From contig NC_031781.1 in assembly GCF_001522545.3 (NCBI RefSeq), positions 11,599,487-11,663,486 of the forward strand: 64,000 nt of DNA. Direction: 5' to 3'. Each line of letters opens with the position of its first letter. Within the stretch, counting starts at the first letter, position 1. The position numbers were made by a program, and so were the translations under genes. Positions 9,401 to 31,400 of this stretch are shown here, piece by piece. The stretch is from Parus major. Lineage: Eukaryota > Chordata > Aves > Passeriformes > Paridae. Under the pieces are notes generated by a model. That model saw nothing but the letters and a program-made list of their open reading frames with translations. It made no database searches and was not told the DNA's origin.

Positions 9401-10563
9401 GCCCCTGAGCCACCTCGAATGTGGCCAGCCCGCCCGCCTCGCCAAGCGCCAGGACCCGTCGCGGCCCCACCAGCAGCACAGCTCGCGGCCGCTCCGGGGC
9501 CCCCAGCGCCGCAACGCTGGGNNNNNNNNNNNNNNNNNNNNNNNNNNNNNNNNNNNNNNNNNNNNNNNNNNNNNNNNNNNNNNNNNNNNNNNNNNNNNNN
9601 NNNNNNNNNNNNNNNNNNNNNNNNNNNNNNNNNNNNNNNNNNNNNNNNNNNNNNNNNNNNNNNNNNNNNNNNNNNNNNNNNNNNNNNNNNNNNNNNNNNN
9701 NNNNNNNNNNNNNNNNNNNNNNNNNNNNNNNNNNNNNNNNNNNNNNNNNNNNNNNNNNNNNNNNNNNNNNNNNNNNNNNNNNNNNNNNNNNNNNNNNNNN
9801 NNNNNNNNNNNNNNNNNNNNNNNNNNNNNNNNNNNNNNNNNNNNNNNNNNNNNNNNNNNNNNNNNNNNNNNNNNNNNNNNNNNNNNNNNNNNNNNNNNNN
9901 NNNNNNNNNNNNNNNNNNNNNNNNNNNNNNNNNNNNNNNNNNNNNNNNNNNNNNNNNNNNNNNNNNNNNNNNNNNNNNNNNNNNNNNNNNNNNNNNNNNN
10001 NNNNNNNNNNNNNNNNNNNNNNNNNNNNNNNNNNNNNNNNNNNNNNNNNNNNNNNNNNNNNNNNNNNNNNNNNNNNNNNNNNNNNNNNNNNNNNNNNNNN
10101 NNNNNNNNNNNNNNNNNNNNNNNNNNNNNNNNNNNNNNNNNNNNNNNNNNNNNNNNNNNNNNNNNNNNNNNNNNNNNNNNNNNNNNNNNNNNNNNNNNNN
10201 NNNNNNNNNNNNNNNNNNNNNNNNNNNNNNNNNNNNCCCCTCCGCCGGGCAGCACCGCCAGCACTGCCAGCCAGCGCCCACCGAAGACCGCTACTCTCGC
10301 TGCCGGCCCGGGCCCCGGCTCGACCCGCAGCCCCTGCACGCTGGCCTCACGCAGCACGCTCCGCCGGTCCGCCGCCGCCGCTGGCCCGCTGCCGCTCAGC
10401 CGAAACGCCACCACCTCCGGGCCTGTACCTGCGGGACATCGCGTCAGCCGCCGCTGCTGGTCCCGCCGCCCGCCCCGTCCCGGTCCCAGCGCTCACCCGC
10501 CAGCAGCACGTTCCCCGCGAACTCCAGCGCTGTCACCGGCGCCACCAGCGCTTTCGACTCCAT
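6428..10563 (-). CDS. WDR6: WD repeat protein 6, tRNA 2'-O-methyltransferase cofactor (6 exons, gap in exon 2)
   Basis: Coding exons in transcript order: 10497-10563, 7993-10428 (containing the N gap 9522-10236), 7620-7715, 7311-7427, 6997-7115 and 6428-6915. About 869 residues are visible; the human protein has about 1121, so roughly 250 fall in the gap. WDR6-specific blocks include YLLPPCKQRWHTCAAFLP, VCGDRRGSLLLF, HGGYIYSTGRDGVYRQL, GFHADNFVVW, CGGGHRSW, LHGREITCVRRLG, SSHRLDKHWE, KMDPETRYMSL, CSAATDGSIAFWD, AHSCGVNSLH and HAAHVTG. The protein is a WD40 multi-propeller homologous to yeast Trm734. It partners FTSJ1 (Trm7) in 2'-O-methylation of tRNA position 34. Phases do not match across the N run, so the gap length is not exact or it hides an intron. 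The last junction is an 81-nt intron readable in frame. The exon 5 acceptor is tandem (start at 7115 or 7112), changing one residue. Confidence 0.95.
6916..6996 (-). other. 81-nt in-frame intron in WDR6
   Basis: On the minus strand this segment begins GTGAGT and ends TTTACCCAG. It is 27 codons long with no in-frame stop, so it can be misread as coding. Removing it leaves 33 residues between FW and AHSCG, against 34 in human WDR6. Keeping it would give 60. Splicing is therefore strongly favoured. Retention would add a hydrophobic insert rich in C, L and A. Confidence 0.85.
9522..10236. other. Assembly gap (715 N) inside WDR6 exon 2
   Basis: A run of N in very GC-rich coding sequence, within the large second coding exon of WDR6. 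The flanking codon frames are offset: codon starts on the right and left of the gap are not a multiple of three apart. The true length therefore differs from 715, or an intron lies inside. Confidence 0.99.
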
Positions 10564-10770
10564 CTTAGCCGCACCAACCCCGCCACGGCTCCCCCACAGC
10601 GCTCATTGGCCGAGTCGCACGTGCCACCGCCCCGCCCACTGCCCATTGGACAGCCCCCGTCACCCCGCCCCCAGAGCACGCGGAAGCTGCGCCCGTGCCT
10701 TCACGCTTTATTGGCGCGCGACGCGGCCCCGCCCCCCGCCCTGCGCGGGAAAAGGTCACGTGCGCACGGT
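10564..10770 (-). promoter_or_regulatory. WDR6 promoter / P4HTM 3' boundary with three CCAAT boxes
   Basis: Only 220 bases separate the P4HTM stop (10784) from the WDR6 start (10563). On the minus strand there are CCAAT boxes at 10605-10609, 10645-10649 and 10710-10714 in GC-rich, TATA-less sequence. A CACGTG E-box lies at 10757-10762. The most distal CCAAT overlaps the P4HTM poly(A) signal. The position just upstream of WDR6 supports a CCAAT/NF-Y-type housekeeping promoter; factor binding is inferred. Confidence 0.7.
10707..10712 (-). terminator. P4HTM poly(A) signal AATAAA, overlapping a CCAAT box
   Basis: TTTATT on the plus strand gives AATAAA on the P4HTM strand, 72 bases after the stop codon, so the 3' UTR would be unusually short. 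The minus-strand reading is CCAATAAAG: the signal shares three bases with a CCAAT box of the WDR6 promoter. Confidence 0.7.
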
Positions 10771-10783
10771 AGCATTCCCGGCA

Positions 10784-13700
10784 CTACAGCTCCAGATGCA
10801 CCCCGCTGTAGGCCTTGTCCACTGTCCATTCGCCCGGGGCTCCGGCCCTAGCCCCCGCCTCAGACCCCGCAAAGCGCTCCATCTCTTGCTGGAACTGTTG
10901 CTGCCGCCGGCGGTTGGGGTCCACGTTGATCCAGTTGTTGGCGATCCACTTGGTGCCTTGGGTGACCAGGCAACCCCCATGCAGAGCAAAGTCGTCCAGC
11001 TCCCCTACCCAGCCTGCAGAGCAGAGCCCCATTAGACGGTGGCAAAGGAGGGCAGGCCCCGCTGGGACCACACAGGGACATACGGCCAGTCAACACCAAT
11101 TCCATCTCTCCTTCCTGCACTGCCTGCTTGGATTTGAGCTCAGATACATCTTACAGGAGTTACTTTTCCTGGCACCCCTCCATTTTAGCACCATCTCACC
11201 CTAGTGCCTACAAGGAATTAATCAGGCTCCCCAAGTGCAAAAGGCCCACTGCCTCCAATTCTCCACTCAGCACAACTGGCTCTCACAATCCAGATCACAG
11301 CATCTGTTTTTCTCAGCTCTTTTGGAAAAAAGAAGGCTGACACAGAAGAGATGGGTACTGCCACTAGAAGGCCTGTGGAAGCCAGAGGCTTCCAGCTGTT
11401 TTAGAGATTGCATTTCAGCAGTCCTAAATGACCTGTTTACAATGATCCTATCGTTTTTCTGTGGCAAACTTGCCTCAGCAGCCACTTTCCATTTAGGAAC
11501 AAATTGCTCATAAAAACACAACAGGGCTCTTCTCACAGGAGAGTGATGGTCTTGATATTATCATACAACAGCCCCAACACTGGTCTTGTGACCTCCTCTG
11601 TGGATTTTCTAGAGATGGAAACATGGGCTGCTCTCAGGGGACCTGAGATGCTACACTCCTTCCTCCCACCACAACTCAAAATCTGCCATGGAAACCCTCT
11701 GGAGCCATACTCACCAGCAGCCTTAAAGATTCATGTCAGTTCCCAGCCCGTCAGGGAAAACCACACTGCGCTTCATGACAAAAACAGCCTCAAGGACACA
11801 TCATGGGGCTGCGGCTGAGCTACAAAGCAGGCACTGGCCCCAAGCGTGGCATGGGGTGGCCCATGTGTCCTCATGCTGCAGAGCTGATGGCCGTGCCTTT
11901 GTCTACCTCCCCTCCCCACCCCTTTGGGCAACACCACATCAGTGACACATTCTGAATTGCAGACCAAGTTCCAGCAGGAGTTTCAGCTTGCACAGCAGGA
12001 TGGAAGGCAGCTGGTGATGGCGAGTGCAGCCAAGGTCTTTGTTTGCTAGCTAGTCCTGTCCCCCAAAGACATCAGGAGCCACTGACCTACTGCCTGTAAA
12101 CAAAGGCCTTTCAGAGTCAGGAAGCTCCTACTCAGCTGGTGACAAAAAGACTCTACAGTTCCCGCTAGCTGGCAGCTACCACCCTTTTTTTGGCTGTTCT
12201 TTGAGCTCCCAGCTGCAGCAAGGAGATGATTGCTGTCACCTACTGCAGTCCCACCCCTCCCAAAAGCTCAGTTTTGAAGTGAGCTTGTACCTTCTCCATC
12301 TGACAGGTAGTTGTACCAGAAGACAGCAGTGCCTTGCTGAGGTTTCACTCGCAAATTGCCCTTGTCACAGTTTTTCCGAGTATCTCGCAGGTCAATGTCA
12401 TTCTGGATCAAAGACTGGAGAGAAACCATAGGGAAGATGTCACAAACAGGGCTGGAACAAGGCATATGCATTGGGTTGTCCTGCTCCTCACCCTTGCCTG
12501 AGAGTCTCAGCATGGCTTAATGTTGATGCAGGGGCTTTCATAACCCACCTGGAGCAACCAGTTTCAGGCCCCAGGAGGTTCATAACCTGTTTCTGAGCAA
12601 ATGCCATTTCTTAACACATTTCCTGACACCTCACACCTCTGAGCAGGGAGAGCTGAGCTGTCAAAGCCCTGCCCCTCCTCCCCTGTCCTCAGAGGAAAAA
12701 GACTCTAAGTGGAGCATGGTTTCCCCAATGCTCTAGCTACAAATGGTAATGCATACCAACTAAAGGCACCAGACCCCTTCTGCAGCCACAATAAATTCAA
12801 AGAGGGACTCAGAATCCCCAGGGGTAACATGTAGTTGAGGTTCATTTACCATCTCCTCGTAAGTCCTGTTATCAGCGATAGGAAAGACTGTTTCACCTCC
12901 TCCAGTCACATTGTTCAGGTAGAACAGCACGGTCACATACCTGCAAGACAGAGGCTGTCAGAAGACACACCTGGAGCAGAAGGAGATGCACACGGGCTGT
13001 CCATGCCCTGCCTCTCCACCATAAACACAGTGGCTCCTCCAAGACATCACATGGCACAAGATTTACACTATCAGCTTTTCTCCAAGAGTAACACAAGGAC
13101 AACAAAAACTCCTACCGAGAGTAGTGAATGCGCTTGTAGGCTCTGCTGGGGACGGCCCACCCACTCCATCTTCCATGTGTGGACCCACAGGGATTTGCTC
13201 ACCTCCCCTTTAAAACCCCTTCATGCCAGTGATGTCCTGAGCTGGTCTGTGAGCCTGCAACCTGACCACTGAGTCCCAGGTGAGATGAGATGAGGTGAGG
13301 TGAAATGGCTCCTCACACTCCTTGTCTTAACATGTTCAGGGCAGAGCTTACCGGCAGGAGGTCTCAAAGGGAGCGCTTTCATTGGCAACAAGCTTTGTGT
13401 GGCTGCAGGCAGTCTCAGGGAACACGGGGCCACTATCCATGTGGGCGTGGTAGTGCCCTCCTTGGTCATACCGGACAACCTGGAGGGGCTCGCTGTGCTC
13501 CACGATCTCGGGGGGCAAGCGAGTCAGGCGCATTACCCTGAGGAAGAGCAGAGCAGATGAGTGGAAAGCCACCCTCACCACAGTCAGCTGCTACCCCCAA
13601 GCAGATAAACCCAGAGAAAGAGAACCCCCTTCCCCAAAAGACCGGACAGACGGATGGGCTGCAGCGAGCATGCCAAGAGACAACCAGGTCCTTACTGTCT

Positions 13701-16700
13701 GTTGGACCATCAGCATTGGCTCAGAAAGCCCTCATCAAGGTTCATGAAAAAACAAAACAAAACCCAAGGAAGCATCTCTAGCAGGACTGCTCTCAGGAAG
13801 ACTTTGCTTGCTCAGCAAGATCCCTTTTGTGCGTGTCCCTGGAGCATTCATGTGCCATCTCATCACTTCTCTGGACTCCTGCACACCACCTACAGACCTC
13901 AGGGACAGTTAGAAAAGCAAAGGGCCCCTGCTGAGAGTGAATGAGAGACTAGCTCTAGGAAGTCTTGTCACCTAACTCACCTTTCCCTGTTGCTTTTTCA
14001 GCAGCCTCCCCCAGGGCAGAGGGGCACTGGAAGTGATCAAGGAGACCGGAGCCCTCCTGCTCTGGGATTTTTCCACTGCTACATCTGAGATCATCCCCAA
14101 GGCAAGCAGGTACGTCTTGAGACCTGCCAAAGAACACTCAGAGCTCTGAGAATCTGGACCGGTGAAACCCTTGGGGCAGGTGCAAGGAGAACGTGGCACC
14201 CGGGCAGGATGGCAAAGCCCCTGCAGGCACTGCCTGGTTCCAGGGAGGACCAAATCTCCTTCAGTGCTGTGTCTTCACATCCTCCTGACAGCAGCCAGCT
14301 GGAGAGCGTATAAGCTGAATGCTGATGCCTATGTGTGCTGGCTAGCTGGCACAGAGAAGGTGGCAGCCACAGTCTGCTCTAATCAAGGCAATATGTGATC
14401 CCATTTTCCCACTGGAATGCACTGAAGAAAAGGAGTGGCCAACAGCTGTTTTTCAGGGCTTGGGGACAGATTTTACCCACACATATTCTGGGTGAGGACC
14501 AGCACCACAAGAACAAGCGAGTCTCCAGTCAATTATCTGAAACTCACTACAACTACATGATTTAGCCTTCATGCTGGGTTTCAGCTCTTCCCAGTACCAA
14601 ATCTGAGATGAAGGGAAGTGTAAAAGGTTCTCCCATCTGCCATGAGCTGCCCTACAATATGTGTGTTCAGAGGATTAAACTATCTTGACTAGTTTAAGGT
14701 GAAGTCGTGCTTTTTAAAAAGTCAGCTCTGAACAGCAAAGACAGATTTCAGTGAAATGCATGAGTAACTAAAGCAAATGACAGTAACTGCTGGCACACAG
14801 ACAGCATTGGAAATGGGCAGTTTCTCCCAGTAAGCTCAGTTACTAATTAGAATGAATGATTTCATATACTGCCAAATCTTCCTGGTTTTATAGGGCTGTT
14901 CCCAAAAGTGAATAGAGATGCTGAAAGGCTTGATTTTTCTTTTTCCCTTTCCACAGGACAATACAAATTCTTGTTCTAATGAAAACCTCCTCTCTCCATT
15001 TTGTGTCTGTTTATTGCTCTTTATACTCCAATGACTTTTCACACAATTAGAAAGTGTGACTTAGCAGGTCTACCACTGCCTCTCGCAGCACACAGGTGAT
15101 GCTTGTGCCTACCCAAATCCAACCTCCCCTCAGCTGCCTGGCCCTTACCTTTGCCGAATGGCTCTCATGACCTGGTGTGCCCCCTCGCCCTGGTACAGCC
15201 AGGTGTGCTGGCTGTTGCGCACCAAGTCACTCATCTTCACTTTCTGGCTTCCCATGTACTTGTGGAAATCACGGATATTCAACTGCTTGAACTCCTCCAA
15301 ACTTAGCACACCTATGGGAACACAGGAAAAACCACCTGAGTCTGGTGCAGGTAATAGTTCTTGCATCCTGTACTTGGAGAAACACCAGCTGAGGGCTCTG
15401 CAGAAACTGCCTTCCTCACACACACCCCAGTCAGGGTCCACTGTGTCCACCACAGGCTGCACCCCTTCTGCCCATGATCATGGGCTCCAGCAATGCTCTC
15501 GCCTGCAGCAGAGGACACAGAGAAACCTGCCAAAGTGAATTTTGCAGGGTCACAACTGGGACAGGCAAAACACCATTTTAAACTTTAAAAAGCTCCTGAA
15601 ACACAAATCAATATATCAAAAGAGAGAAACAGACACTATAGTTTGGATATACACAAGAAAGTCTGTACCACCCAATGTCTTATTAGTTAGATATTTAAAT
15701 CAACATGTTTAAGGACAGAGTAGGACCTCAGACCACATTTTCTATATGATGTTGCAAGGCAATTAAGAAAAAGCCAAATCAAAAATAACCAGTACATTCT
15801 CCTGCATTTGTGTAATTGCAAAATATAAATGAGGAATACATGACAATATGGTCTTGTGTAAATAGAAATACAGAAAAGCAATAGGTATAAAGCAGTTTCT
15901 CCTAAAACAGGTGTTTCTTCTTTGCACTTAACTGGAATCAGCAAGGGTTGTCCTTGCCTTTGTCAGCTTCAGGAAAATCCTCACATTTGTTGTTTCCTCT
16001 TTCTGGAGAAGGGAAGCCTTGCACGGGTCTCTGATACCAGCATGCAGTGCACTGCCCTGGGCTGCCCACCACACACCATGGGCTGGGAGAGGAGGCACTC
16101 AGGCAGCAAACCCAGTGCCTCTGGGTGCCAGCTCTGTTCCCTGGGCACCAGCACCCCCTGGCAGGAGGAAGGACCAGCAACAGTGGTCAACCAGGGACAG
16201 CTCTTCAGGTGCCATATCCTCAGGTCATGACCAAATGATCCATTGTTATTACTTCTAGTGTCTCTCTGTCCCCACTTCCCCTTACTCCCCCACAGTCTTT
16301 GATGACGCAGTGCCACATCCAGGTTGTGACCTGGTCTCTCAGTGTCATGTACCAATCTAACAACAGAGGGAAGCAGCACTCTGGAAGCAAGGTCCTGCCA
16401 ATAGCCCTTTAACAGGACCTTTCATTTGTTAATGTCCAGAATGGTGGAAAAGCCATTGAGGACTCAGTCATACCCCTGCCAAGAATGCCATCAGCCTGGA
16501 GGAGAGTTGCACAGGGTGCCCTCCGGATATTTATGCATTCACACTGCTACTGCTTCAAGTCCAAAGCAGCTCCTCCTAGGCAGCTCTCAATGCCAGGTCA
16601 TTGGAAGAGAGTGTGTAGAGCTTGTGCATTCACTTAATTTGATTAGGAAATGGAGTGTTGCTTAATTGAGGCCACTCTAATTAGAGCAGTAGAGGTTAGA

Positions 16701-19700
16701 GTGTATGTCCGGACCAGCAGGAGCCCTTGGGACACCAGGGGCAGGAGGGGCAGAAGTGGCCTCATGGAATACAGAGAGGTCACAGCAGCAGAGTGGGGGG
16801 ACAGCGCCAAAGGCTGACAGACAAGATCACCCCCACCTCCACTTATTCCACTCTCCCCTCATAGTGATACAGGCCACTTGGCCTGCTGCAAAAGTCTCCC
16901 TGAAAGCAGGGGGGGAATGCAATGTGTATCTGAACATGTGCATCCCAGGTAACAAGCGCTCTGTAGTCAGAACCTGAGCAGTCTCTCAGACTAGGGGAGC
17001 GGAAGCACAGCCCTAAGATCCTGTTACAGCAGTGCATGAACCAAGGCTGGTGTGACAGTGGGGTGGGAGCGCAGAATTGTGGTCTGGTCCTGCTCCAGCA
17101 AGATCCAAGCCTAGGCAGTGGAACCAGTTAGCCACTACAGTGGTGATGCAGGGGCGGGAGTGCTGCATTTACTTCCCTAAGAAGATGTTTAGGGCAGTGC
17201 TACTTCCCTTCAAAGAATTCAGCTAGAGAAAAAAACCCTGGGCAGGGACATGGCTCTTGCCCTCCCCCAGCATGGCTGTGTAAGGTGTCCAAGGTACTGA
17301 TGGTGAAGGGATTCCCATGGAGCTGCTCTTACCATTCCCATCAGGATCAGCTTTGACTGCTGTGTACATCTCCCGGATGTTTTCAGGAGTCATCCACCTG
17401 CCGTTCCCAAGTCGGGTATGGGTCAACACCTGAAATTCATAAATGGATCAAAAAAACCCACTGGTTTCTTGCACTCCTGAGACCCTACAGATTCCCTGCA
17501 TGAGGCCTGGTGAGATCTCCTTCACAGCACATTAGCCAGACAGGCATTGGCAAACTACTGCAGAAAGACGATTGGAGTGAGAATCATCAGTGTTGCAAAT
17601 GAGCGCTGTTATTTCCACTTTAGGTCATGGCAAATGACCGCTGGGATTTGATTAACCAGCCCTGAGGTAGACAGAGCACAGCTGTTTTTTTACTTGTCTG
17701 AGGTAAGGGCTTGGAACAAAATTCTTGCCTTCAACATGTACAGAGAGATGCAGAAGCCTAAACAGCTCTCAGCAGGCTCTGACCTTCAGAGAAAGTAGCC
17801 TTGCCCTCGGCTGTCACTGGCACAGCTCCCCATACTCCACAGTACTCATGGTGCACAGGATGGCTCAGACTCCCAGCTTCACCTGAAATGGGAGCCTGAG
17901 GAGGGACACTGTCAGTAATTGTCCTGATGCACCCTGCCATACAGGACAAGGGTGCTGAAGAGCTATGGACAAGGGGCTTATTATCCCCCCGCCATGGCTC
18001 ATCAACAGAGGTGGCTTTGGTGGGGTGTGTGAATTCACACAGTAAGTTCCCCACAGGCTGCAGAAAGCAGGGCATACATGACAAACTCACTTCCCAGGAC
18101 ATACAGAAAGAGGCAACAACCCACAGCACAGGAACATTTTATCCAGCATATTCAAAACACATATGTTCTGCCAAGGACTGTTGCTGTCTCCCAATAGCAT
18201 GACAACTGTTGCACATTGACCAAGAAACTTCCATTTTGAAGGCCAGGACAAAATTTGAGGCATAAAATTAAGCAAATTGTGATTGGTATATCCTGGGGTC
18301 TGGCCCCACCCAAGCACATGAATAGTCAAGAGAGCATCTGACAAGGGGATGTGCCAGAGGGTCCCCAGCAAACCTTCCCCAGTCTGTCCCACATTCTACC
18401 TCTTTGAGCTGCAGCTTCCCATCCTGATTGTGATCCAGAAGATTGAAAATGTCCATCTGGCTGATTTCGATCATTTCCATGGCTTCCTCATAGTCCTCTG
18501 TTGGTAGGATCTGGCTCTTCTGCAGCCCCTTTAGCTTTGCCAGATGGACAATGAGCTTGCACTCCTCCTCTGTCAGGAAGTCAGGGATTTCTGCAGCAAA
18601 AGTGTGAGCAGCAACAGAGACTGAGGAACTGTTACAGTGGGATACCATGCTGGTGGCAGGAGACTCAGGAAAAAAAACAACAGAGGTAGAGGGGAAGTTT
18701 AGAAACTATCTAAGTCTGGGACATTTAAAAACATCTACCCTTCTACCAGAAGGGCCCTCAAAGAGCATACACTACACACTAGAGCTGCTGGAGACAGGTA
18801 TTTTTATAGCAGCAGTTCCTAAATGTTTGGATCCTGGGGTCAAGCCCTTAAACTCTCTCACAAATACCACAATGGACAAAGGAGTGAACAAACACATGCA
18901 TATCACTGCATATTACCATTTCAAAGGTGCCATGTGGATCACAGTCTGGGAACTGCTGCTTTACCGGAAGGGAGGCCAAAAATCTTTACAGTGGGCAGTG
19001 GTGATGGCCAGGGTTTCAGACTTCCCTGTTCTCATGTGGACAGGATAACACTTTGCACAAAACCAAATCCCTTTCAGGGGAGCATGGCACAGTGCTCTAC
19101 TGTGAAACTCAAACATAAAGGAGAAAAATTCTAACTTACTCACACTCATTCTCTTGATCCCCCATTGAAAGTGGTCTCCAAACGCAATATTAAAGAGGAA
19201 AATACTGGACATGGAGGATGCCAGGCTCCATACCCAAGTAGCTCCAGCTTTCACTTGCAGCACAAACCCAGCAGCAATCAGGCAATTCCACAATCCCAAA
19301 CAAATTAAAGCACAGAGAAATCCACTGATGACCACGAGACTAGGAGACTTCTAGCTGCATGCTACACTGGGCACACACTTGGAAAGCACTGGCAAGGTCC
19401 CACTGCATAGCACAGTTAGACTGTGGTCCAGGAGGTTCAGAGGATCCTCCTGGCTGGTGTCTGTCAAAGCTATGGTGACCTTGTTACCAGCTGCTGAGAC
19501 TTGAAAAGGGAAAGAAAAACCATCAGTGTAGGACAGGTTAAGTGCTCCTAGACCCAAGGTCTTGCTCTCCAAATTGCAGCTCCCTAGAGCTCCTGCAGGT
19601 ATGTGCCAAGGACACATTATAGATCAACTACAGCAGCAATCCTCAAATGGAGGGAAAAAATTAATTACTTTCATGACCTGAAATCAACCCTATCGGCTCA

Positions 19701-22700
19701 AGCTGTCAATAAGCAGTTGGCTTCCTGCTAAGCACAGAACAGAACCAGCCCTGTAGAAAAAGAACTGTTCCTGGGAAGCCCCAGGAACACAATGCAGCCA
19801 GCTGTATCCTTAACACACTCCAAGGAAACAATTTCCGCCACAGGCAGCACAGGGTCCTTGTGCCAGAGGATGCTTCGAGCTGGAGCTTCTACTGACCAGT
19901 TTGAATCTCATGGCACAGCACCAGGTCTAAATGAACCATGTGCACTGGCAACCAACGCCCCCAGTATTTCCAGTTCCCCAAACTGGGCTACAATAATGAT
20001 GGCTTATGGAACCTTAATTACATGCTGGAGGAAGGACAATTCCACTCTTCAGAGGTAGTAACAGGATTTCAGAATGAAGCAGGAATTCTGTTAACTGCAA
20101 AGTGTGTGGCCATGCAGGTTGCAAGGTGAGGGGGTTTCCAGCTGAGTGCTGCCAATCCCGTCTGCAAACAACTTGGTTCCACAGCTGTAAATTAGTTCCT
20201 CTCTGGCCCCAGCTCTCCTAAACAGTTAACTTGTGGCTGTGAGACCATCCTATCTCCCTGCCTGCTCAACAATAGCTCCAGCTAAACAAATGCCTCCTAA
20301 TTGACTTTAAGCAACACTTGATTGCTTTTACAAAAAACAAAAGAGAGGAAAACATTAGGGTTTATGAAATAATGACTAATCCTGGAGCAAGAGAAAGGGG
20401 ATGGGTTGGAGCACTGGTGTCAAACCGAGATTCACTGAAAGAGCTCCAAGACACATGGGCCAAGTCATTCATCCCTCCCCAACTGCCCTCATTTCCACAC
20501 CTGCTGATCTAAGCCAAACCCCTGCTAAAATACAAACAATCAGGGCCGCTGGCAAATGAAAATTGGAGCATTGTCTTCCCCATGAGGGCTCTGAAAGGGC
20601 CGCACTTAATGAGGATGGATTGACAAAGAGGTGGCTGGTAGGCTATAAAAGGCATTCCACAGTCAGGAGCAGTTCAGTCTGCAGTGTGCTGTTGGTTCAC
20701 TTGCTCCAAGCATGATCACGTCCCCTCGCAGGCACCCCTTGAGGTTGGGTGGCCTGTGGCTACTCGGTCTCCTGGCACGCCTGCTGCTCTGGGGCTCTCC
20801 AGGCGCCTGGGCAAGCTACCTGAGGAGATCCTCCAGCTGCATGACCATCCCACACCGCATGGCCTTGTGCTACGATATCGGCTACTCCGAGATGAGGATT
20901 CCCAACCTGCTGGAGCATGAGACCATGACAGAAGTCATCCAGCAGTCTTCCAGCTGGCTGCCCTTGCTGGCCAGGGAGTGCCACCCAGATGCTAGGATTT
21001 TCCTCTGCTCCCTCTTTGCACCGATCTGCTTGGACAGGTAAGATGTTTTTATGAGTTATTTCAGCTGTAACAGTTAACTCCCTGCAGGAGCACAACTACA
21101 TGTGCCTCCCGAGAGAAAATGCATTCAATGGGATCTGTGTGGTCCCCAAGAAGCAGCACTGCTGCTCTCGGCAAGGGACAATTGGATTACTCAGCATGGA
21201 ACAACCCTCTGAAAGCGAAACATGAGCATTTCATATCACAGGAGCAGAAATATGTTCCCTCCTTGGGATTCTACTGCTCTCTTACCCCAGGCACTGCTGT
21301 CACATGCCCTAGCCAGCCCCTCATACACTGCAGTAGCTGCTGGTAAACATCAGCTTCACCTCCTACCTCCTGTGCAGCCCCTCACCCCAGCTCCTAGCCC
21401 AAGTATATAGTTTCTCAGTTTCCCAACTGTTTCCCAACAGTTCCAGTAGCAGAAGGAAATCCCCAGCTTTGAGGTGCAGCTCTCAAAGTACAGAGCTGCA
21501 AAGGAAATTTGGTGTGTAATCAGGTACCTGTAAAGGTAAGCAGTCTTTGCACAACTAGAGAAGATCACTAAGGAGGTGAAGGGCTTCTGGCAACTTGCCT
21601 CATCCCTCCTGTCCTGAGAAATTCCTTGCATTCCTGGACTTGAATGTTCACAAAAAAGTCAAAGATCCCAAAACTGCCTGCTAAGCCTTCCACTCGGCTC
21701 TGTGCAGCAGCAGTGGTGCTAGGGCTTGACCCTCAGCCTCCTGCCAGGCACACTGAGGTGCTGAATACCCATCCCCTCCCCAGGCTCATCTATCCCTGCC
21801 GCAGCCTCTGCGAAGCTGTTAAGAGAAGCTGTGCGCCCGTCATGGCTTGTTATGGCTATCCCTGGCCTGAAATCCTGAACTGCAACAAGTTCCCTGCAGA
21901 TCATGAACTGTGCATTGCAGCAGTCTCCATGGATGAAAATTCCTCAAGCAAGAGAAGTAAGAGGTTTTTTTCTTTATGTATTTTCCCATACATAACACTG
22001 AAAGCTCAAAAGGATGATCCTATGACTTGTTTCTATTCTGCTTATTTCTGGTTTTAAGCTATATTTAAAAACAAAAAAAATTACAAATTCTAGTTTTATT
22101 CTCTCTGGGAACTGTGTCTAGAAAATTAGTGTAACATTGACTGTGGCTTGTTCCCCTCTCTGCTGTATTCATTAGCTCCCCGGGTGCCCTTAGACCCCAC
22201 AGGGCTTGGGGCAGGGGAAAGGAAAAGCTGCAAAGCCTCTGGCCCAGGCACAGTGGGAGAGCTCATGGAGTGCAGACTCCCAGCAGCGAGATGTGCTTCT
22301 ACTGGAGCTATGGAGCTGAAGCCTCGATCTTTCAGCTGTGTCTAGGGTTTAAAAACACACAAAAAGAAATGTTTTGCAAGCCTTCTCTCTAAACATTAGA
22401 AACATCATGAAGGGACATAAGCCTCTGCAGACATGAGTTACACTGGAAAAAAGTCTGTCTGAAGGACTCGATTAACACCCATATACTGATGAACACTGGG
22501 GGAGATTCAAGAGCAGTTAAGGGGAGAACAGACATTTCCACATAATTTCAGCATCACTGGATGGAGTCTGGCCATGTCATTAGTTTTGCTGTTTCATCCA
22601 AATTACGAGACCTTCATTAAGTATTTTCACTGATGCTTTAACATGCAGCAACTCACACAAGCCTGAACAAAGCATGACAAGTGGTGTCTGCCCCAGTCAC

Positions 22701-25700
22701 AGGAAGGAGAGTCTAACACTTCCCACCCTGCTTGTCTGAGGTATCTCTCCATGGCCTGGGTAGCTCAGAAAGATGCATCACTAAAAAACAGCAAGCCATC
22801 ACTTGCAGGTCTCAAAAGTTCATTGTGCCTTTTCCAGTGAAGCTTGACAAGGGTGTTATAACCTAATTTCTATTGCAGCAGTGCCCCGAGCCAGCTGCAA
22901 GGACTGTGAGCTTGAAGAGGCCAGCACTGCCAGGGAGATCCTGGAAAGCCTCTGTGCAAACGATTTTGGTGAGTACCCTCCTTTTCCTCTCAATTGCTGC
23001 CATTCCCTCCAGCAGCCAAGCAGTGGCATGGACAGAAAATAGCTTTGCCATAACATACTGACTTGGAGAAACTGCAGCTTTTACAGCAGATCCCAGGCAA
23101 TTTCAGTTTCTACCTTACCTGTGAGGTAGCAGGAAGACCCAATTCCTGGCAGCACTGGAAGTGAAGACCTGGGTTATTTCTGATTTGGGCTCTGATTTGG
23201 TTTTGGTCTGTGACTACTAAAAACAAGCAGTATTCTGGTTTTCTCTTGCAGACAAACATTTCAATCAATGCCTGTAAGAATCTTTAGCAAATTCCATGTC
23301 AGCTATTTCAAACTTTAATAGTGTCGTTCTAGTATTGTAACTCTCCTTCTCACAGTCCAAGCAAGTGGCAGCACTGGCTCTGCTCAATTAGATGGCACAG
23401 AGTTTTCAACATATTGTCCTGAATTCAGGCACACATATTGGAAAACAAAGACATTTTTCAATAAAAGAGGAAAGGTTAAAAATCCTGAGCAGCTGTCAGT
23501 CATGTCACTTCCCGAAATCCCTGCTTAGAGAAAAGTCAAGTAATTTGCACAAGACCAGGAAGGACTTTGATGCATGTGCTTGCTTGTGCCCATGATTCCT
23601 CCAGAATTTCTGCAGTGATGCTGATAAATCTTCGCCACTCTTAGGAGGTAAATGGATTGAGAAGGAGAAGGAGGTCTTTTCTCCCACAGAACAAGAGGAA
23701 ATGCAATGGAGAGGTTCAGATTGGGTAATAGGAAAAATTTCTTCACCAAAAAAATTATCAAGCACTGGAACAGGCTGGCAAGGGAAGGGCTTGAGTCACC
23801 ATCCCTGAAGGTATTTGAAAGACATGGAGATGTGGCACTTTAGATCATGGTTTAGTGGTGAACTGCACAGTGGTTGAACTTGATCTTTGAGGTATTTTCC
23901 AACCAAAATAATTCAGTGATTCTAAGAACAGTGTTCAGTACTGGAAACTAACCTCAAACGAGAACTTTTACAAGTTCACTGCAATTGCAAAAGCTTGGAC
24001 AGATACCTCCCCACATTACAGAGACAGCAGAGAAGCCTTGGGCTTGGCTGTTGAAGTAGGTTAGAACTATGAAAAGTAAACAGAGCTAACAGCTTTTCTT
24101 CCAACCCCTGCAGCAGTGAAAATCCGAATCCTGAGGAAGAACATCACCACCACCATCTCGGATTTTGACCTGGACCCCTCCAAGGTAGAGGTGCTGAAGC
24201 ATGGCCCGCTGCTCAGAACTGAAATCCCTGCCAGGCTCCAGCAGTGGCTGGACATAGATGCCACATGCGCCCACAACATCATGCGAGGCACTCACGCAGG
24301 AGTCTTTGTTGTATGTGGTGAAGTACAGAGTGACAAAGTGGTGGTGAACAAGGCCTATGCCTGGCAGAAGAGAAACAGGAACTTGCACCAGGCAGTGCGG
24401 AGGTGGAAACATCACCGCTGCCCTGAACAGGCGGGATGGAAGGTCTGAAAAATGCAATAAGAAACTTCTCCCTTCCCTATGGCTAGAAAACTCCTTTTCC
24501 TGGCAGGTGGCATTTTGGAGATGTACAGTCCTATTTCTAGGTGATTTGAAGCAGTCATAGTGCACAGATAGGGCTTCACTACAGATCCCCATTTTACCAA
24601 GACAATGCTTAAGGATGCAGGTTTAACATGTTCCTCTCACAAGGCTCTGTAGATCCAGGACGTGCTATGTTCAGCTTTGCGTAGGATCCAACATCAAAAC
24701 AAAACTTAACTATGCAGGTGAGGACAAATTAGAAGAAACCTTTAATAACAGTTCCTTCTAGTTCTCAGTATCAGAGCTGGTATTTCACATTCATTATTTG
24801 ACCCCAAGACATTGATGCTGTTCAAGTGCCTGCTTGCTTTCTGTCCAGAGATTACATGCAAGTCTCCCTGACTGTGAAGCGATACTTTTTATGTAATGGA
24901 GGAAATACTTTACTCTTGAACAGACTGAGGTAAACTGATGGGGAGAGGAACCCACCCCTGCTGTGCCCAGACCCTTAAAAACTGCAGGCTAAACTCTGCT
25001 CTTGAGTCAGGCTGTCCCTTCAGCTTCTTGCACTGAGAGCTAATGAGCATCCATGCACGCAGAAGGAAATGGCCATTCTCAAGCAGGAAGGGCACAGAGC
25101 AGATAGCTGAGGGTTTCCATATAACAGGGAAAACTATTTTTCAACATCAGAAATTCAGTGTAGATCAGAAGATTCTGGTAACTGAGGATATCACAAGAAC
25201 CTTGAGAAAAGCAGAGCATGAGTGAGACATCAGCTTTCAAAGCTGCTTTGGTGTGAAGAGCAGCTTGCTCAGGACTGGGAGTTGAGTCCCAGCCCCAGCA
25301 CAGTAGGATACTGCAGTTTTCATATGGGAGCAGGGGAGAAAGCTTCCACAGCTACCTGGCCTTCCACTTGTACATAAGGAAGATAATACATATGGGAAAA
25401 CTCAAGTCTCACCAAGTTCTCTGCAGCTCACTCTCTCACTCAAGTGGGACTGTCACTCCTTGCAGGGGTACACACTGTGCTCCAGACCACACAGCAGAAA
25501 ACAACAAATCCCCAAATGAGGAAACAAGTTGGGTTTCTACCACTTAACAAAGCACTGTCCATGGAAGATTTTCTATATTGGTTTAAACCTGTGGCTGAAA
25601 TAAAAAAAACACACAATCAGAAAAAACAGCCTTTGGGAGGAATGCTTTTGGCCCTGCTGGCGATGCCTGCAGCATTGGCCGAGCAGAGACAGCCAGTCTG

Positions 25701-28116
25701 CTGGAGACACATCGGTCTGCTGGAGACACATTGCCTCCCCGTGTTCACAAGGCACACCAACAACCCACGCTGCAGGCTCCTCCTCACACTGGTGTGGGCT
25801 GAAACGAGCATTCACACACACACACACACACACACTGCAATTCAGCTGCGCCCTGACATTTGTGCAGTGATTACTTCTCTTCCCTGAGGCTCAGAAGAAA
25901 AACATAGCCAAATTTCCTATTTTTATTCCTCCCCACTGTCTTCTTAGAAACTGCTGCCCAATCCACAGAATCTGCTGTCAGGTGGTCCCTGCAACGGCAG
26001 TATCTTCTGAACAGACTGCGTTTGGAAAAAAGAACACATAAAAGCTCTTGAAGGTTGAAAAGGCTTTGTGTGATTTGTTTTCCATTAGTAGGGCTATTTG
26101 ATTACTAGTGTTTCCCAACTGAAAACTGCACAGATGGTCTGATTTACAAGCTTTAGAAATGATGCCTTGTAGCCAGAGGGGGGAAAAAAATAGGGCAGGG
26201 ATTTTTTCATAGCTCCATAAAATACACTTGGGTTCCATGCAGATGTGACTTATCTACAATTAAAAACCAAAACCTAAAGTTCCCCTATGGTGCACAGCCC
26301 ATGCTCTAAAGCCCAGAGAACACAGTAAATAATTCATGAGTGTCTGCTGCTGTGGTCCCACTGCAGCCTGCTCTGCCGAAAGATGATAGACCAGGCAGTG
26401 TTTCCTTAAACTGGTTCTTGTATGCTGCAGCACTTTGTATTAAATCCCCAGAATCTCAAGCGTCTTTGCTAAGGGCTTCTGTATTCACCAAACACAACTA
26501 AATTAAATACACACTTCCACTAATTTAAGCAACAAAGATGCAATGAATTGTTTTTTTTAAACCAGTTGAATTAGACTGGTACTGCTTGCATAGATAGAGA
26601 AGTCTCTGGAAGTCTTTTAAAGTCAGAGCTGGCTCCTGGCAAGTTCATCCAGGAGATAAGAACTGTCTTGCAACTAGGAGCTTCTAAATAAGGGACTCCT
26701 TATCGGAGGACAAAGGAGAACACACTCATGGCATCTCAAGTGGTGAAAGTGTCACAGTCTGTGATGGCATCCTCAGGGAACAAAGCTTTCCTCAAAACCA
26801 ATGGAAGTGCTGGAACAAGAAACTAAAAACTGCAGGATTACTGCTGCCAGGACAAACCTGCCTTTTATCATCTTCAGCACCTTCCTTGCTGGCCAGGACC
26901 AACTGTTTCACTTCAGTGGTACTAGAAAGGCAGGGAAAGAGGAAACAGGAGTTTTCCTGAGTGAAAACCAGAGCAATTGCCACAGACTACGGTTCTGGTA
27001 ATGACAACAGTTTTGTGATGTTATGGGGTTATCAGCTCCAGGTTACTATGTCTGTTTAGTGAATGTCAGACAGAAATCCACTAAGAAATTAATGGTGAGG
27101 TTTTCAGTGTATATGATCTATTTATTAAAAGAAAAAAATATATTTATCTCTATATAATTGAGAAAGCATCTGAAAGATTCTGTATGCTGTCTTTTCAGAA
27201 ACAACAGGTTTTCTCTGACTTTGAAATAGTAGGAATTTTGTAATGATTGATTCCCCCCCTCAAATTATTTAGCATATTGTCAGTGACTTTCCAGAACACT
27301 GAGTTAGTGAGACTTGACCAGTGACAGCAAAACATGACAGAAAGGTAAAGAAGAGGTAAAAATATCTGAAAGGCAAGTGTTGTGTGGTTGTGTATCAGAG
27401 AAGCCGAAAATAAAGATAAATCTAGAACAGGACACAAGATGGTGGAAGACTTTAAAACTATCAATTCTCCTGTAACTCATTTCCTCAGTGTTGAAGCATC
27501 AATACTAAATTGCTTATTCATAATTTAACAAAAATCTTGTCCTTTCCTTCTATCGAGCAGCTTCTTCAAGGTTCTTGCCAGTGATCTGCTGTCTATTCCT
27601 AGTATTTTACAGAGAACCTGAAAAACCTAGAAAGGTTAATCTTCCGAATTCTTCAAACTGGGCCATCCAGAATACGTAACCTCTGCGAATTTTACATCAA
27701 CATACCTTAAACGACACTACACTCTTTAAAGCAGCCCCAAGGAACAGCAGCACGGGGAGGTGATGCCAACACGCGGGAAGTCGTTTTCCCCGAGTGGGTG
27801 TAAAACAGCGGGGGGTGTCAGACAGACACGCACACACCCCCCCCCTCCGCCGTCAGGGCGGAAAGCCCACCGCTACCGGCTCGCCCGTGCCCGGCAGCAG
27901 CTGCCCCCGGCGGGGCCTGTACTCACCGAACAGGAGCGGCTTGAGGCTGAGGGTGCGCACAGCGTGGGCCCTACCGGGCACCAGCTCCACCCGCTGCGTG
28001 TGGCCCACCTGCGGGGAGAGCAGCGGTCAGCGGTCAGCGGTCAGTGGCCCCGGTCCCGGCCCCCGGTCGCGGCCTTGCCTTGATGCCCTCAAGGCGTGGG
28101 AGGGCGCGGGCGGGCG
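10784..28116 (-). CDS. P4HTM: Transmembrane prolyl 4-hydroxylase (N-terminus in assembly gap)
   Basis: Exons in transcript order: 28079-28116 (exon 1, continuing into the gap), 27927-28008, 18400-18590, 17333-17429, 15149-15311, 13352-13537, 12850-12940, 12291-12414 and 10784-11013. Phases agree, with 387 residues downstream of exon 1 (human total about 502). The protein is an ER-membrane Fe(II)/2-oxoglutarate dioxygenase that can hydroxylate HIF-alpha. Visible parts are [12 protein letters not shown], an EF-hand [12 protein letters not shown], a second EF-hand-like loop [14 protein letters not shown], and the double-stranded beta-helix core. That core has the iron ligands in HYHAHMDSG (H, D) and LHGG (H), and the 2-oxoglutarate lysine in GTKW. 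The membrane anchor should lie in the unsequenced part. Intron 1 is a 70-nt GC-AG intron. Intron 2 (9.3 kb) hosts an SFRP gene on the other strand. ARIH2 lies upstream and WDR6 downstream on the same strand. Confidence 0.95.
18810..18958. mobile_element. Degenerate hAT-like MITE (about 149 bp, terminal inverted repeats)
   Basis: The left end starts CAGCAGTTCCTAAATGTTTG and the right end, read in reverse complement, starts CAGCAGTTCCCAGACTGTGA, so 10 terminal bases match and the similarity continues inward. The termini resemble the CAG-rich ends of hAT-Charlie-type elements. Flanking octamers TTTTATAG and CTTTACCG match at 5 of 8 positions, as expected for an old 8-bp target duplication. There is no coding capacity. 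It lies in P4HTM intron 2, upstream of the nested SFRP gene. Confidence 0.55.
20520..20711 (+). promoter_or_regulatory. TATA-box promoter of the nested SFRP gene
   Basis: A canonical TATAAAAG at 20644-20651 sits about 65 bases before the start codon at 20712, predicting transcription from about 20675 and a leader of roughly 35-40 nt. Upstream are SOX/FOX-like ACAAACAAT (about 20533), a CATTGT, and a TCF/LEF-like GACAAAG (about 20628). The context is AT-rich with no CpG island, unlike the four housekeeping genes nearby. This fits a tissue- or stage-restricted gene (inference). Confidence 0.75.
20712..24448 (+). CDS. SZL: Secreted Frizzled-related protein, sizzled/crescent type, nested in P4HTM intron 2
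   Basis: Coding exons: 20712-21037, 21784-21956, 22879-22968 and 24114-24448. All junctions are GT-AG with consistent phases, giving 307 aa. Residues 1-34 form a signal peptide with a leucine-rich core ending GAWA. A Frizzled cysteine-rich domain follows (about residues 40-150): [54 protein letters not shown] and NKFP. There are 11 cysteines, one more than the usual ten; the extra one is in [10 protein letters not shown]-terminal netrin-like domain begins [11 protein letters not shown] and includes [10 protein letters not shown], ending in a basic tail with RRWKHHRC. It should be secreted and modulate Wnt ligands and/or tolloid-type BMP-pathway proteases. The family is certain. Sizzled versus crescent is not settled from sequence alone, and the symbol is my best guess. 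It lies antisense within P4HTM, has its own TATA promoter, and has a first in-frame ATG with an A three bases after it but a weak upstream context. Confidence 0.9.
23655..23926 (+). mobile_element. CR1 LINE 3' fragment
   Basis: The sequence follows the avian CR1 3' end closely: AGGTTCAGATTGGGTAATAG, then TTCTTCACC, CACTGGAACAGGCTG, GAGTCACCATCCCTG, GGTATTTGAAAGACATG, GATGTGGCACTTTAG, CATGGTTTAGTGGTG and TTTTCCAACC. It ends in an ATTCAGTGATTCTAAG tail like the CR1 terminal octamer repeat. It is 5'-truncated with no open frame left. It lies in intron 3 of the nested SFRP gene, in the same orientation. Confidence 0.93.
25599..25604 (+). terminator. Candidate poly(A) signal of the nested SFRP gene
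   Basis: First exact AATAAA that I see on the plus strand after the stop at 24448, implying a 3' UTR of about 1.15 kb. AATAAG near 24454 is a weaker, closer variant. Confidence 0.4.
25812..25837. repeat. (CA)n microsatellite
   Basis: A short uninterrupted CA dinucleotide run in P4HTM intron 2. It generates open frames with alternating T/H or C/V residues that are not genes. Confidence 0.9.
28009..28078 (-). other. 70-nt GC-AG intron (P4HTM intron 1) with triplicated branch-point-like repeat
   Basis: On the minus strand exon 1 ends ...LEGIK (matching human LEGIK|VGHERK) with AAG|GCAAGG as donor, and the acceptor is CTCCCCGCAG. No GT dinucleotide occurs anywhere in the 70 bases, so the GC donor is the only plausible choice. 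It keeps the correct phase (0). Three near-tandem copies of CTGACCG, a good branch-point consensus, lie just before the polypyrimidine stretch. Confidence 0.85.
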
Positions 28117-28419
28117 NNNNNNNNNNNNNNNNNNNNNNNNNNNNNNNNNNNNNNNNNNNNNNNNNNNNNNNNNNNNNNNNNNNNNNNNNNNNNNNNNNNN
28201 NNNNNNNNNNNNNNNNNNNNNNNNNNNNNNNNNNNNNNNNNNNNNNNNNNNNNNNNNNNNNNNNNNNNNNNNNNNNNNNNNNNNNNNNNNNNNNNNNNNN
28301 NNNNNNNNNNNNNNNNNNNNNNNNNNNNNNNNNNNNNNNNNNNNNNNNNNNNNNNNNNNNNNNNNNNNNNNNNNNNNNNNNNNNNNNNNNNNNNNNNNNN
28401 NNNNNNNNNNNNNNNNNNN
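28117..28419. other. Assembly gap (303 N) over P4HTM exon 1 and promoter
   Basis: N run in a CpG-island context between the visible end of P4HTM exon 1 and the ARIH2 3' end. It should contain the P4HTM start codon, cytoplasmic N-terminus, transmembrane helix and promoter. Confidence 0.99.
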
Positions 28420-28490
28420 CCCCGCCCCCCGCCCCTCCCCATCTCACTGCCAAGAAGAGCCAGGACACCGCCGAAGTTAGAAAGTCACAA

Positions 28491-28496
28491 TTTATT
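28491..28496 (-). terminator. Distal ARIH2 poly(A) signal AATAAA
   Basis: TTTATT on the plus strand gives AATAAA on the ARIH2 strand, about 70 bases before the gap that holds the P4HTM promoter. It is the last such signal before the neighbouring gene. Earlier candidates on the same strand occur near 30845 and 29083, so alternative 3' ends are possible. Confidence 0.55.
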
Positions 28497-31400
28497 TCAA
28501 ATAAACCACGGGCACACCTCTGGCAACCGTCTCCCGGGCGGTTTCCGCCGCCCCTGCCCCTCTCTGGTGCCTGCGAAGAAAAGCGAGGGGTGGGAGCAGT
28601 CCTGTGCCCTCCCACATACCTCAACGCTGTCCCAGAACCCCAACCAGACCGAGGCCGAGAAAGGAATTCCCAGAACGAGTGCCTCATTTAAAAATAAAGT
28701 TCTATTTTTCACCTGCTTAAAAAGTCTAAAATTTAGAGTGCAAGACTATAGTACAGAAACCTCCTGCTGCCCCGTCTGTGGGCGGGCACAGAGACTTCGC
28801 TGCACAGGGCAGCAGTCATGCAGTTTATGGTGTCAGTAGAAAACGTTTTGTTACAGTCTGGGAAGCCTGAGGACGAACAGAGATGAGGCAGCCAATGCAC
28901 TAACACAAGCAAAGCCCAAATAAAAAGAGTACCAGATGCAAGGATGGAGAGGTGTTGGGCTGGCGCAGGAGCTGGAAATAAGTGCAAAAAAGAAAAAAAG
29001 AGAGCAAACATTCCACGTCTGTAGCAGTAACGCATCAAAAGGAAACTTGTACCTCAGAATTAATGGCTCCTGAGCCACACTTTTTATTACCTACATCCAT
29101 ATAACCTTGCTAACACAAAGAGGACCATGTACTTATTACAGGGGGGGAAAAATGGCCTTTTCTTGTGGCGCTGAGAGTCCTCATTTCCTTCCTGTCACCT
29201 GCCTCCTGAGCAGTGTCATTCACCTTACACACACAGCCAGCAGCCCCTGTGCCTTGCACATTTCATCTTGAAGTCCATGACTTTCTGTACAGAAGTGGTC
29301 CTGCCTGCACTGCAAAACCAAGTCCTGTTGTTTTCCCGAAGTATGGCAATAGGATCTGTGGGTGCAACCCAGGACTTTCACAACTTTCAGAAAGGATGTT
29401 TTGTTTAAAAAGAAATGGAACTGTTGACAAAGCTCTAGTTTCAGAAAATTTGAAAGAATTAGTGGGTGCACTGTGCAATCCTTACTCCTGTTCCTCAGCC
29501 AAGTATCTCAGCAGCCGGTTCAGTAAGCCTGGCCACAGCTATATGGTCTGGCTTGTCTACAAACAAGGATTTATAGCAAAATATTTTGTGGGGGCACAGA
29601 AGAGGGAGGGAGGGAAGGAAGGAGGGAAGGAGAGAGACAAAACCTCATTCTCATTTAGCTCAAAGCCGGACAATTACGTAACAGAAGTGAAAATTCTTTG
29701 GGATTAGGAAACTCCACGTACATGTTCTGCAAAGGCATTAGGTGTTAAGATAGTTATGTTTAGACAACAAGAACACCAGCTTTTATCCAAATCAGTACTT
29801 TGCACATTACATTTTTAAATAATAGTTTAAACATTGGTTCTATTCACTGCAAACTGCTGTGTCTCAGCAAACCTTCCCTCATCCACTATCCCTTCCCATG
29901 GAAGCAGCATGCCAAGACATTTGGGAAGGAGAGAAAAAGAGACTGACCTCTAGGATATATCACGAAGAGGGCACAGAGAGGCTGCTGCTGGGTGCAGAGT
30001 GGGAAATGAAGTCAAGAGACAGTGGCTGGAGCAAGGTCAAATCTATCTCTACAGCTCCAGCTTCAAGGGGAGCCAGAACAGGACAGAGCAGGAACGCAAG
30101 GAGTCATGGCTATGGAGATCTCTTGCACAGCAAGCAGCGCTGCTCCCAGAAACCACAGACCCCTTTCCTACTCCCTGACTCCAGCCATCTCTCCACAAGC
30201 CTGCCCAACCCTCAGCTGCTTTTGCTGTAACACTCACTCCACGGCCAGCAGCTCCTTGCAGCGCATCCCCTTGTTCCCTGAGGATAGATCCCACACCAGG
30301 GATGGGAGGGAGGAAGGAAAAGGCCTCTCAGTTTGAAATTTTCTGCTGTGTACAACAAGCATGGCCACAGGATTAGCTCCTGTGACAGCTACTCCTTGTT
30401 TAAACTAATGCATCAGTCTTGATAAAATCTATGAGCCCAATTACACCTGCTGCAAATACCTGAGTCACATGTCTCAGGTATATGAAAGAGGTTAAAACAG
30501 CAATTAGCTTATTCTGACACACAGGGGTTTAGCACTTTTCCCCCCTCCAGTTTAATCTTTATCAAGTGACATTGCATAAGAACAATACAGGGATGCATCA
30601 AAGGCAACACTTCCAAATACAGCATAGAAGAGAATCCCAAGAGTTCCCCACAGAGGTGAAAATTTCCTCAGATCAGACTCCAGCTGCACCTTACCGGCTG
30701 CAAACAGCAAGCTCCTGGTGCAAGTGACACAGATATCTGAAATCCTATAAAGTGGCCTGCTTCCTGTAGCAAACAGGCAAGAGTCAGCATTTAAGTAACC
30801 TTTTTCATGTTAATCCCTACTAAGATGAACTAGGTTTTAATATTTTTATTTTAGTGTATATTTTACATTAGAAAAGAGAATGTTAATAAAAAAGCTCCAC
30901 ATGCTCCTAACAATCAGTTTTCTGATAAGTTCCCACCAGCATCAATACTAATATACAAATAAATTAATTTTGCTAGGTAATTTTCTGCCTGGCTTGGTGC
31001 AGGCTCTGCACAAGCAGTGCACCTGTATTCAAGTGCCTGTCCACATTGCCAACACGTGCCAGGGAGTGTGTTGCACATAATCTTTTTTCCTCATAATGTA
31101 GTGGTGTTTAGTCTCACTCTGATGAACGAGATCAATTTTTCTCAGCCATGCTACCCAGCAGGCACAAATAATCTTTATCAGGCTGCATGGCACTGTTATA
31201 ACATGGATTCTTTCACTCTGCAAAAGCCCCAAGCCTTGATTAACAACTGTATGCTACTACTCCCTCATCACTCACTTTGGCAATACAACATCCTCCCCAC
31301 AAAAACAAGTAAAGCAAAAATCTACATGGAAGACCTAAAATTCATCAAATGCAGAATCTGATTTCTCTCAAACTCAAGGCATACCCCCCAATGTTAACCC

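Follow-up and report, generated by a model that had tools for sequence, protein, structure and literature searches.

A predicted crescent gene lies antisense within a P4HTM intron of Parus major, with crescent-like proteins annotated in placental mammals

Gene structure and antisense nesting

We analyzed 64,000 nucleotides of the Parus major genome (NCBI RefSeq assembly GCF_001522545.3, contig NC_031781.1, positions 11,599,487 to 11,663,486 of the forward strand; this whole stretch is called the window, and positions are counted from its first letter), in which a gene for a secreted Frizzled-related protein lies inside an intron of P4HTM on the opposite strand. Judged by its sequence, this gene is the bird orthologue of crescent (frzb2 in Xenopus). 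On the + strand, four coding exons with GT-AG junctions throughout give a single open frame of 307 amino acids (aa) plus stop, and the complete four-exon, 307-aa secreted Fz/netrin gene proposed by an earlier reading made from the letters of this DNA (the sequence-only reading) is thereby borne out. Coding exon 1 (20712..21037) encodes a signal peptide, recognized by eye only, and the first part of the Fz domain, or cysteine-rich domain (CRD); exon 2 (21784..21956) encodes the remaining Fz domain and an inter-domain cysteine at residue 131, the equivalent of Cys115 in Sizzled; exon 3 (22879..22968, 90 nt) encodes the linker, the start of the netrin-like (NTR) domain, and the equivalent of Sizzled Cys156; and exon 4 (24114..24448) encodes NTR domain sequence and the stop codon. 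The window protein therefore has the layout signal peptide, Fz CRD, and netrin-like domain. No second crescent-like stretch was found in the window, where tblastn with the protein gave just one further match, at an E-value of 0.19.

The gene has its own TATA box, as had been claimed: TATAAAAGG at 20644..20652 on the + strand, 68 bp upstream of the ATG. The motif TATAAAAG occurs five times in the 64 kb, both strands counted; when 400 pieces of 600 bp were drawn at random from the window, 13 contained it. Positions 20520-20643 are presumably promoter rather than transcript. Downstream, the only AATAAA between the stop codon and 25900 is a candidate poly(A) signal at 25599..25604 (+ strand), which matches the earlier end coordinate of 25604; the transcription start and the end of the 3′ untranslated region, placed here from motifs alone, are predictions. 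In the 600 bp upstream, FOXA, OTX/GSC, and TCF sites number two, one, and zero, counts reached by 64, 104, and 400 of the 400 random pieces, and the count for a broader FOXA pattern is reached by 86 of 400. Because none of these is above background, we make no claim of promoter control by FOXA, OTX/GSC, or TCF. Tandem CAGCAG acceptors precede exon 3 (22876-22881) and exon 4 (24111-24116). Use of the second acceptor at exon 3 gives a form one residue shorter (KRMPRASC), as in the Cyanistes entry P0001, and database versions of 306 and 307 aa are therefore probably tandem-acceptor products.

The host gene was delineated by tblastn of a human P4HTM protein against the window, with exon ends placed at splice sites. 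P4HTM is on the − strand. Its exon 1 is masked in part, with the 3′ end visible (28079..28116, adjoining a run of N at 28117-28419), and the gene continues through exon 2 (27927..28008), exon 3 (18400..18590), and exons 4 to 9 (17429-17333, 15311-15149, 13537-13352, 12940-12850, 12414-12291, and 11013-10784), ending at 10784. Intron 2 (18591..27926) measures 9336 bp, in agreement with the 9.3 kb given earlier, and it holds the whole crescent gene in antisense orientation. Nested antisense intronic genes are a kind generally known in vertebrates; like them, this is a complete multi-exon gene in a host intron on the opposite strand, and nothing about the arrangement appears unusual. The two promoter sides differ in CpG content, with an observed/expected ratio of 0.99 on the P4HTM side (27900-28900, N run included) and 0.11 on the crescent side (20200-20700). 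This contrast is in keeping with wide use of the host and tissue-specific use of the guest and proves neither; transcriptional interference between the two, which the sequence-only reading had raised, is a possibility about which we can only speculate.

Identity of the nested gene

Searching with the window protein returned 323 proteins at an E-value of at most 1e-3, and our comparisons use the best 120 of these 323. The closest among the matches listed are from Cyanistes (98% identity) and Lonchura (97%). Gallus "crescent isoform X1" (entry P0004) is 92% identical over 90% of the query and 88% identical over the aligned whole length, and Xenopus tropicalis "frizzled related protein 2" is 67% identical. 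The window protein contains a Pfam Fz domain (E = 8e-28), and a sequence search of the PDB matched Xenopus Sizzled across both CRD and NTR (residues 40-300, E = 3.3e-80). On the evidence of the Fz domain, the Sizzled structure, and the E-values of the protein search, chance resemblance is excluded. Chicken crescent (P0004) and Xenopus crescent/frzb2 (P0021, P0022) are orthologous to the window gene: they fall in one clade with it, share its CRD-linker-NTR layout, and show only species-level sequence differences. The gene itself is thus already known, chicken crescent having reportedly been studied by Pfeffer et al. in 1997, and it is the nested setting that is under-described.

For trees, we picked 31 of the 120 crescent-search matches and 13 of the 120 matches of an SFRP2 search, together with SFRP1 and SFRP5 rows that we take to be the human sequences. 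A tree of 49 rows places the window protein with crescent of Cyanistes, Mycteria, and Gallus (support 100/99), within the starred set of 15 amniote crescent rows (96/93). A 46-row tree, built after removal of FRZB, szl, and a single long SFRP2-like row, unites the 32 crescent rows (100/100); the presumed human SFRP1 and SFRP5 join outside this group, separated from it by a branch of length 2.74. The tree program issued a long-branch warning and the two trees differ in the order of deep crescent branching, an order that we do not trust.

Residues reported for Sizzled provide a further comparison. Sizzled has eight disulfides, one of them inter-domain (Cys115-Cys156), a bridge that among other SFRPs only Crescent shares according to PMC9437010, where Asp92 and Glu44 are given as crucial to the inhibition of BMP-1. 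We counted residues in a 244-row alignment that includes 120 listed matches each of the crescent and SFRP2 searches. All 16 cysteines are present in the window protein, including the Cys115 and Cys156 equivalents, and the Asp92 and Glu44 equivalents are D and E. The Cys115 column is C in 120/120 of the crescent-search matches and in 0/120 of the SFRP2-search matches, and it holds F and A in the presumed human SFRP1 and SFRP5 rows.

Two other family assignments were weighed. The gene could be an orthologue of sizzled: Xenopus Sizzled (szl) is the best match among solved structures, has the same two-domain fold (7el5, 5xgp), the cysteine pair joining CRD and NTR, and the Asp92 and Glu44 equivalents, and its single row falls inside a 33-row crescent/szl group in the 49-row tree. 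A structure match to Sizzled cannot discriminate, however, because no crescent entry is among the 43 PDB matches, and identity to Sizzled is only about 42%, against the 92% and 67% to chicken and X. tropicalis crescent; szl also sits on its own branch, 2.46 long, away from the bird rows. A sizzled identity was rejected on identity and tree, and we consider it extremely improbable; of the "sizzled/crescent type" proposed earlier, the crescent half holds and the sizzled half does not. Alternatively, the gene could be a diverged member of SFRP1/2/5. Database names point that way, since crescent-like proteins among the matches listed are mostly called SFRP5-like, SFRP5, SFRP1, or SFRP2 in the visible names and only the chicken entry says crescent; SFRP1/2/5 have CRD and NTR too, and the two SFRP1/5 rows are sister to crescent (100/98) in the 46-row tree. 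Yet they lack the Cys115 equivalent and form separate clades, set off from the single crescent group by the long branch described above. The phylogeny that the sequence-only reading had proposed as a check thus places the window protein apart from SFRP1/2/5, an assignment rejected by identity, tree, and the Cys115 column and likewise extremely improbable.

Several observations weigh against identification as crescent. Pfam reported no NTR model for the window protein up to E = 0.01. We used P0001, 98% identical to the window protein, for fold prediction, and from a 26-row alignment it reached a mean predicted local distance difference test score (pLDDT) of 70.6 and a predicted template modeling score (pTM) of 0.49; a Foldseek comparison of this model with structures, which speaks for the proposed fold, again found Sizzled best (7el5, E = 2.9e-24, 42% identity), followed by Frizzled CRDs, but the AlphaFold model is a moderate one (root mean square deviation of 6.1 and query template modeling score of 0.53 to Sizzled). 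Szl lies among deep crescent branches in the 49-row tree with its place unresolved, and a crescent clade excluding sizzled is accordingly not supported by that tree. Neither inhibitory residue is diagnostic: the Asp92 position holds D in SFRP1/5 too, as it does in 76/120 SFRP2-search matches, and Glu44 is E in 41/120 crescent-search and 54/120 SFRP2-search matches.

Proposed function

By analogy with named relatives, the window protein most likely antagonizes Wnt and inhibits Tolloid/BMP1, and its gene is most likely expressed in anterior endoderm and hypoblast, where chick crescent is expressed. The gene's own TATA promoter would drive transcription in early anterior endoderm, hypoblast, and prechordal tissue, and the secreted protein would act extracellularly in two ways. 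Its CRD would bind Wnts and keep them off Frizzled receptors, and an Asp-tipped loop of the CRD would enter the active site of BMP1/Tolloid and inhibit the protease, sparing Chordin and lowering BMP signaling. Crescent is reported as a Tolloid protease inhibitor in PMC9437010, PMC3639276, and PMC8753366. A point against the expression part comes from turtle and gecko hypoblast, in which anterior visceral endoderm (AVE)/hypoblast genes including Crescent are not expressed according to PMC13200725; this part may therefore not hold for all sauropsids.

Age of the P4HTM linkage

We compared by eye the sizes of the contigs listed for crescent and for P4HTM, using 120 listed rows each. Each size refers to the longest contig in a cluster, and a cluster appears under its first name alone, which makes a mismatch weak evidence. 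The 14 species comparable in both listings, none of them a mammal, cover ray-finned, coelacanth, amphibian, and lizard lineages; six have contigs of identical size to the base, and eight differ. The six are the frogs Hyperolius riggenbachi (299533495) and Anomaloglossus baeobatrachus (263395100), the skink Tiliqua scincoides (272452919), the caecilian Rhinatrema bivittatum (486875112), the coelacanth Latimeria chalumnae (46767274), and the ropefish Erpetoichthys calabaricus (89129353). In the frog Ascaphus truei the sizes differ (45112175 and 25563010) and crescent is listed on two contigs, yet crescent (FKM82_004460) and P4HTM (FKM82_004459) have consecutive locus tags. They also differ in Xenopus laevis, a tetraploid for which several assemblies are likely. 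None of the six teleosts matches: Anguilla rostrata, Paramormyrops, Hypomesus, Halichoeres trimaculatus, and Morone saxatilis, on sequences of at least 14.9 Mb, and Aldrovandia, whose scaffolds of 3.1 and 0.2 Mb cannot decide linkage.

Because the two genes share a chromosome in ropefish, coelacanth, amphibian, and lizard lineages, these data fit an old linkage, an ancestral neighborhood that was broken in teleosts, and do not by themselves prove nesting. Weighing against an ancestral arrangement, eight of the 14 comparable species give no contig-size match and the nesting itself is observed in this window only. The earlier suggestion that nesting is ancestral is thus upheld at the level of chromosome linkage and not beyond it. 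We would regard the nesting as an old genomic neighborhood, in which any regulatory role would be hypothetical. Alternatively, faulty assembly or the recent arrival of a retrocopy in P. major could account for the nested position, given that nesting was seen in one sequence and other species provide contig-level linkage. No run of N interrupts 10237 to 28116, however, and same-size contigs in six non-teleost species and the consecutive Ascaphus tags also argue against it; a retrocopy is ruled out because the gene has three introns, and we regard the explanation as a whole as very improbable. A pattern search for vertebrate DNA with the nested pair, run on genome contigs and viral contigs, gave 8 and 44 matches, none of them a relative. 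Neither the P4HTM/crescent pair nor a nested SFRP was found in the literature searched, judged by titles and the starts of abstracts, and a prior description is possible. The P4HTM neighborhood offers a precise place to seek intact crescent or its remnants in any vertebrate genome.

Probable crescent proteins in placental mammals

The sequence-only reading had started from a reported loss in placental mammals and suggested that, if the nested position is ancestral, this loss could have been a clean deletion within the P4HTM intron. Among the matches listed, five clusters are named for four placental species: Camelus dromedarius (P0041, 6 member sequences), the sac-winged bat Saccopteryx leptura (P0043, 6 member sequences, and an isoform, P0116, with 3), Mustela lutreola (P0055, 14 member sequences, 256 aa), and the pika Ochotona princeps (P0060, 4 member sequences). 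Contig sizes given for the mustelid, bat, and pika clusters are 225, 83, and 43 Mb. Leaving out the isoform, the four proteins show 80-90% identity among themselves and 60-64% identity to two marsupial crescents, with which they group in both trees (95/94 with 49 rows, 81/96 with 46 rows) at the end of a long stem (0.82 and 0.78, respectively). The 28 non-placental crescent rows have 74 invariant columns, of which 71 read the same in every one of the four placental proteins (ignoring mustelid gaps), and conservation is best in the CRD, where 50/51 invariant columns are kept. All 16 cysteines are retained, except that the mustelid model lacks the stretch holding the first. That model, P0055, starts at an inner methionine and is without the signal peptide and first cysteine, a state that could reflect incomplete annotation or incipient decay. 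Missing from the bat isoform P0116 are 30 residues that match exon 3 of the window gene to within one residue, and the limits of exon 3 therefore appear to be common to bat and bird.

These placental proteins are annotation models, seen as protein sequences only, and they could stem from contamination, from pseudogenes repaired in the models, or from a different paralogue, with crescent extinct in placentals. Annotation pipelines can bridge disabling mutations, the mustelid model is without its N terminus, and the placental branch is long. Human and mouse are reported to carry only unitary-pseudogene remnants of crescent, described in PMC6886504 as "a recognized mammalian pseudogenization event," and a recent SFRP family paper (PMC9437010) gives mammals SFRP1-5 only. 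Against extinction stand the high identity among the four proteins and to marsupials, their retained cysteines and invariant columns, the large contigs, and the grouping with marsupials in both trees; we judge extinction of crescent in placentals unlikely.

Intact-looking placental proteins together with human and mouse remnants argue against a single early placental loss and against a clean deletion, and neither part of the earlier supposition is supported. Crescent would instead not have been lost in the placental ancestor, and would have decayed in place in separate placental lineages after a period of faster change. On balance we favor, with some reserve, a history in which crescent has lain antisense within P4HTM since the bony-vertebrate ancestor, sped up on the placental stem, underwent separate losses in lineages including those of human and mouse, and is still alive in camels, bats, lagomorphs, and probably mustelids. 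Overall, we hold it very probable that the window carries an intact crescent orthologue nested in antisense, with the proposed Wnt and Tolloid inhibition and the proposed decay in separate placental lineages. Retention of crescent in placental mammals is untreated in the literature searched, by titles and abstract starts; subscription papers fell mostly outside this search, and a prior description is possible. If the favored history is true, embryos of camels, bats, or pikas would be natural material for testing what was given up by mammals that lost this Wnt/Tolloid inhibitor. Were the copies in marsupials and several placental orders intact and constrained, the absence across mammals would give way to a series of late losses, and these would be mammals in which crescent can be studied. 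For annotators, entries named "SFRP5-like," "SFRP1," or "SFRP2" can be crescent.

Other features

The SFRP2 search also listed an "SFRP2-like" paralogue (P0206-P0240), with about 50% identity to the human SFRP2 protein, in sharks, coelacanth, amphibians, turtles, a crocodile, and lizards, with no mammal among the matches listed. It groups beside SFRP2 with support of 88/75 in the 49-row tree and 100/98 in the 46-row tree without the shark row. The window has two runs of N (9522-10236 and 28117-28419), one in an apparent gene that is presumably WDR6 and the other in P4HTM exon 1. Intron 1 of P4HTM, about 70 bp long, has an apparent GC rather than GT donor at 28077-28078 (ATCAAG|gcaagg). Finally, a stretch at about 23840-23920 in crescent intron 3 looks like the 3′ terminus of an avian CR1 element.

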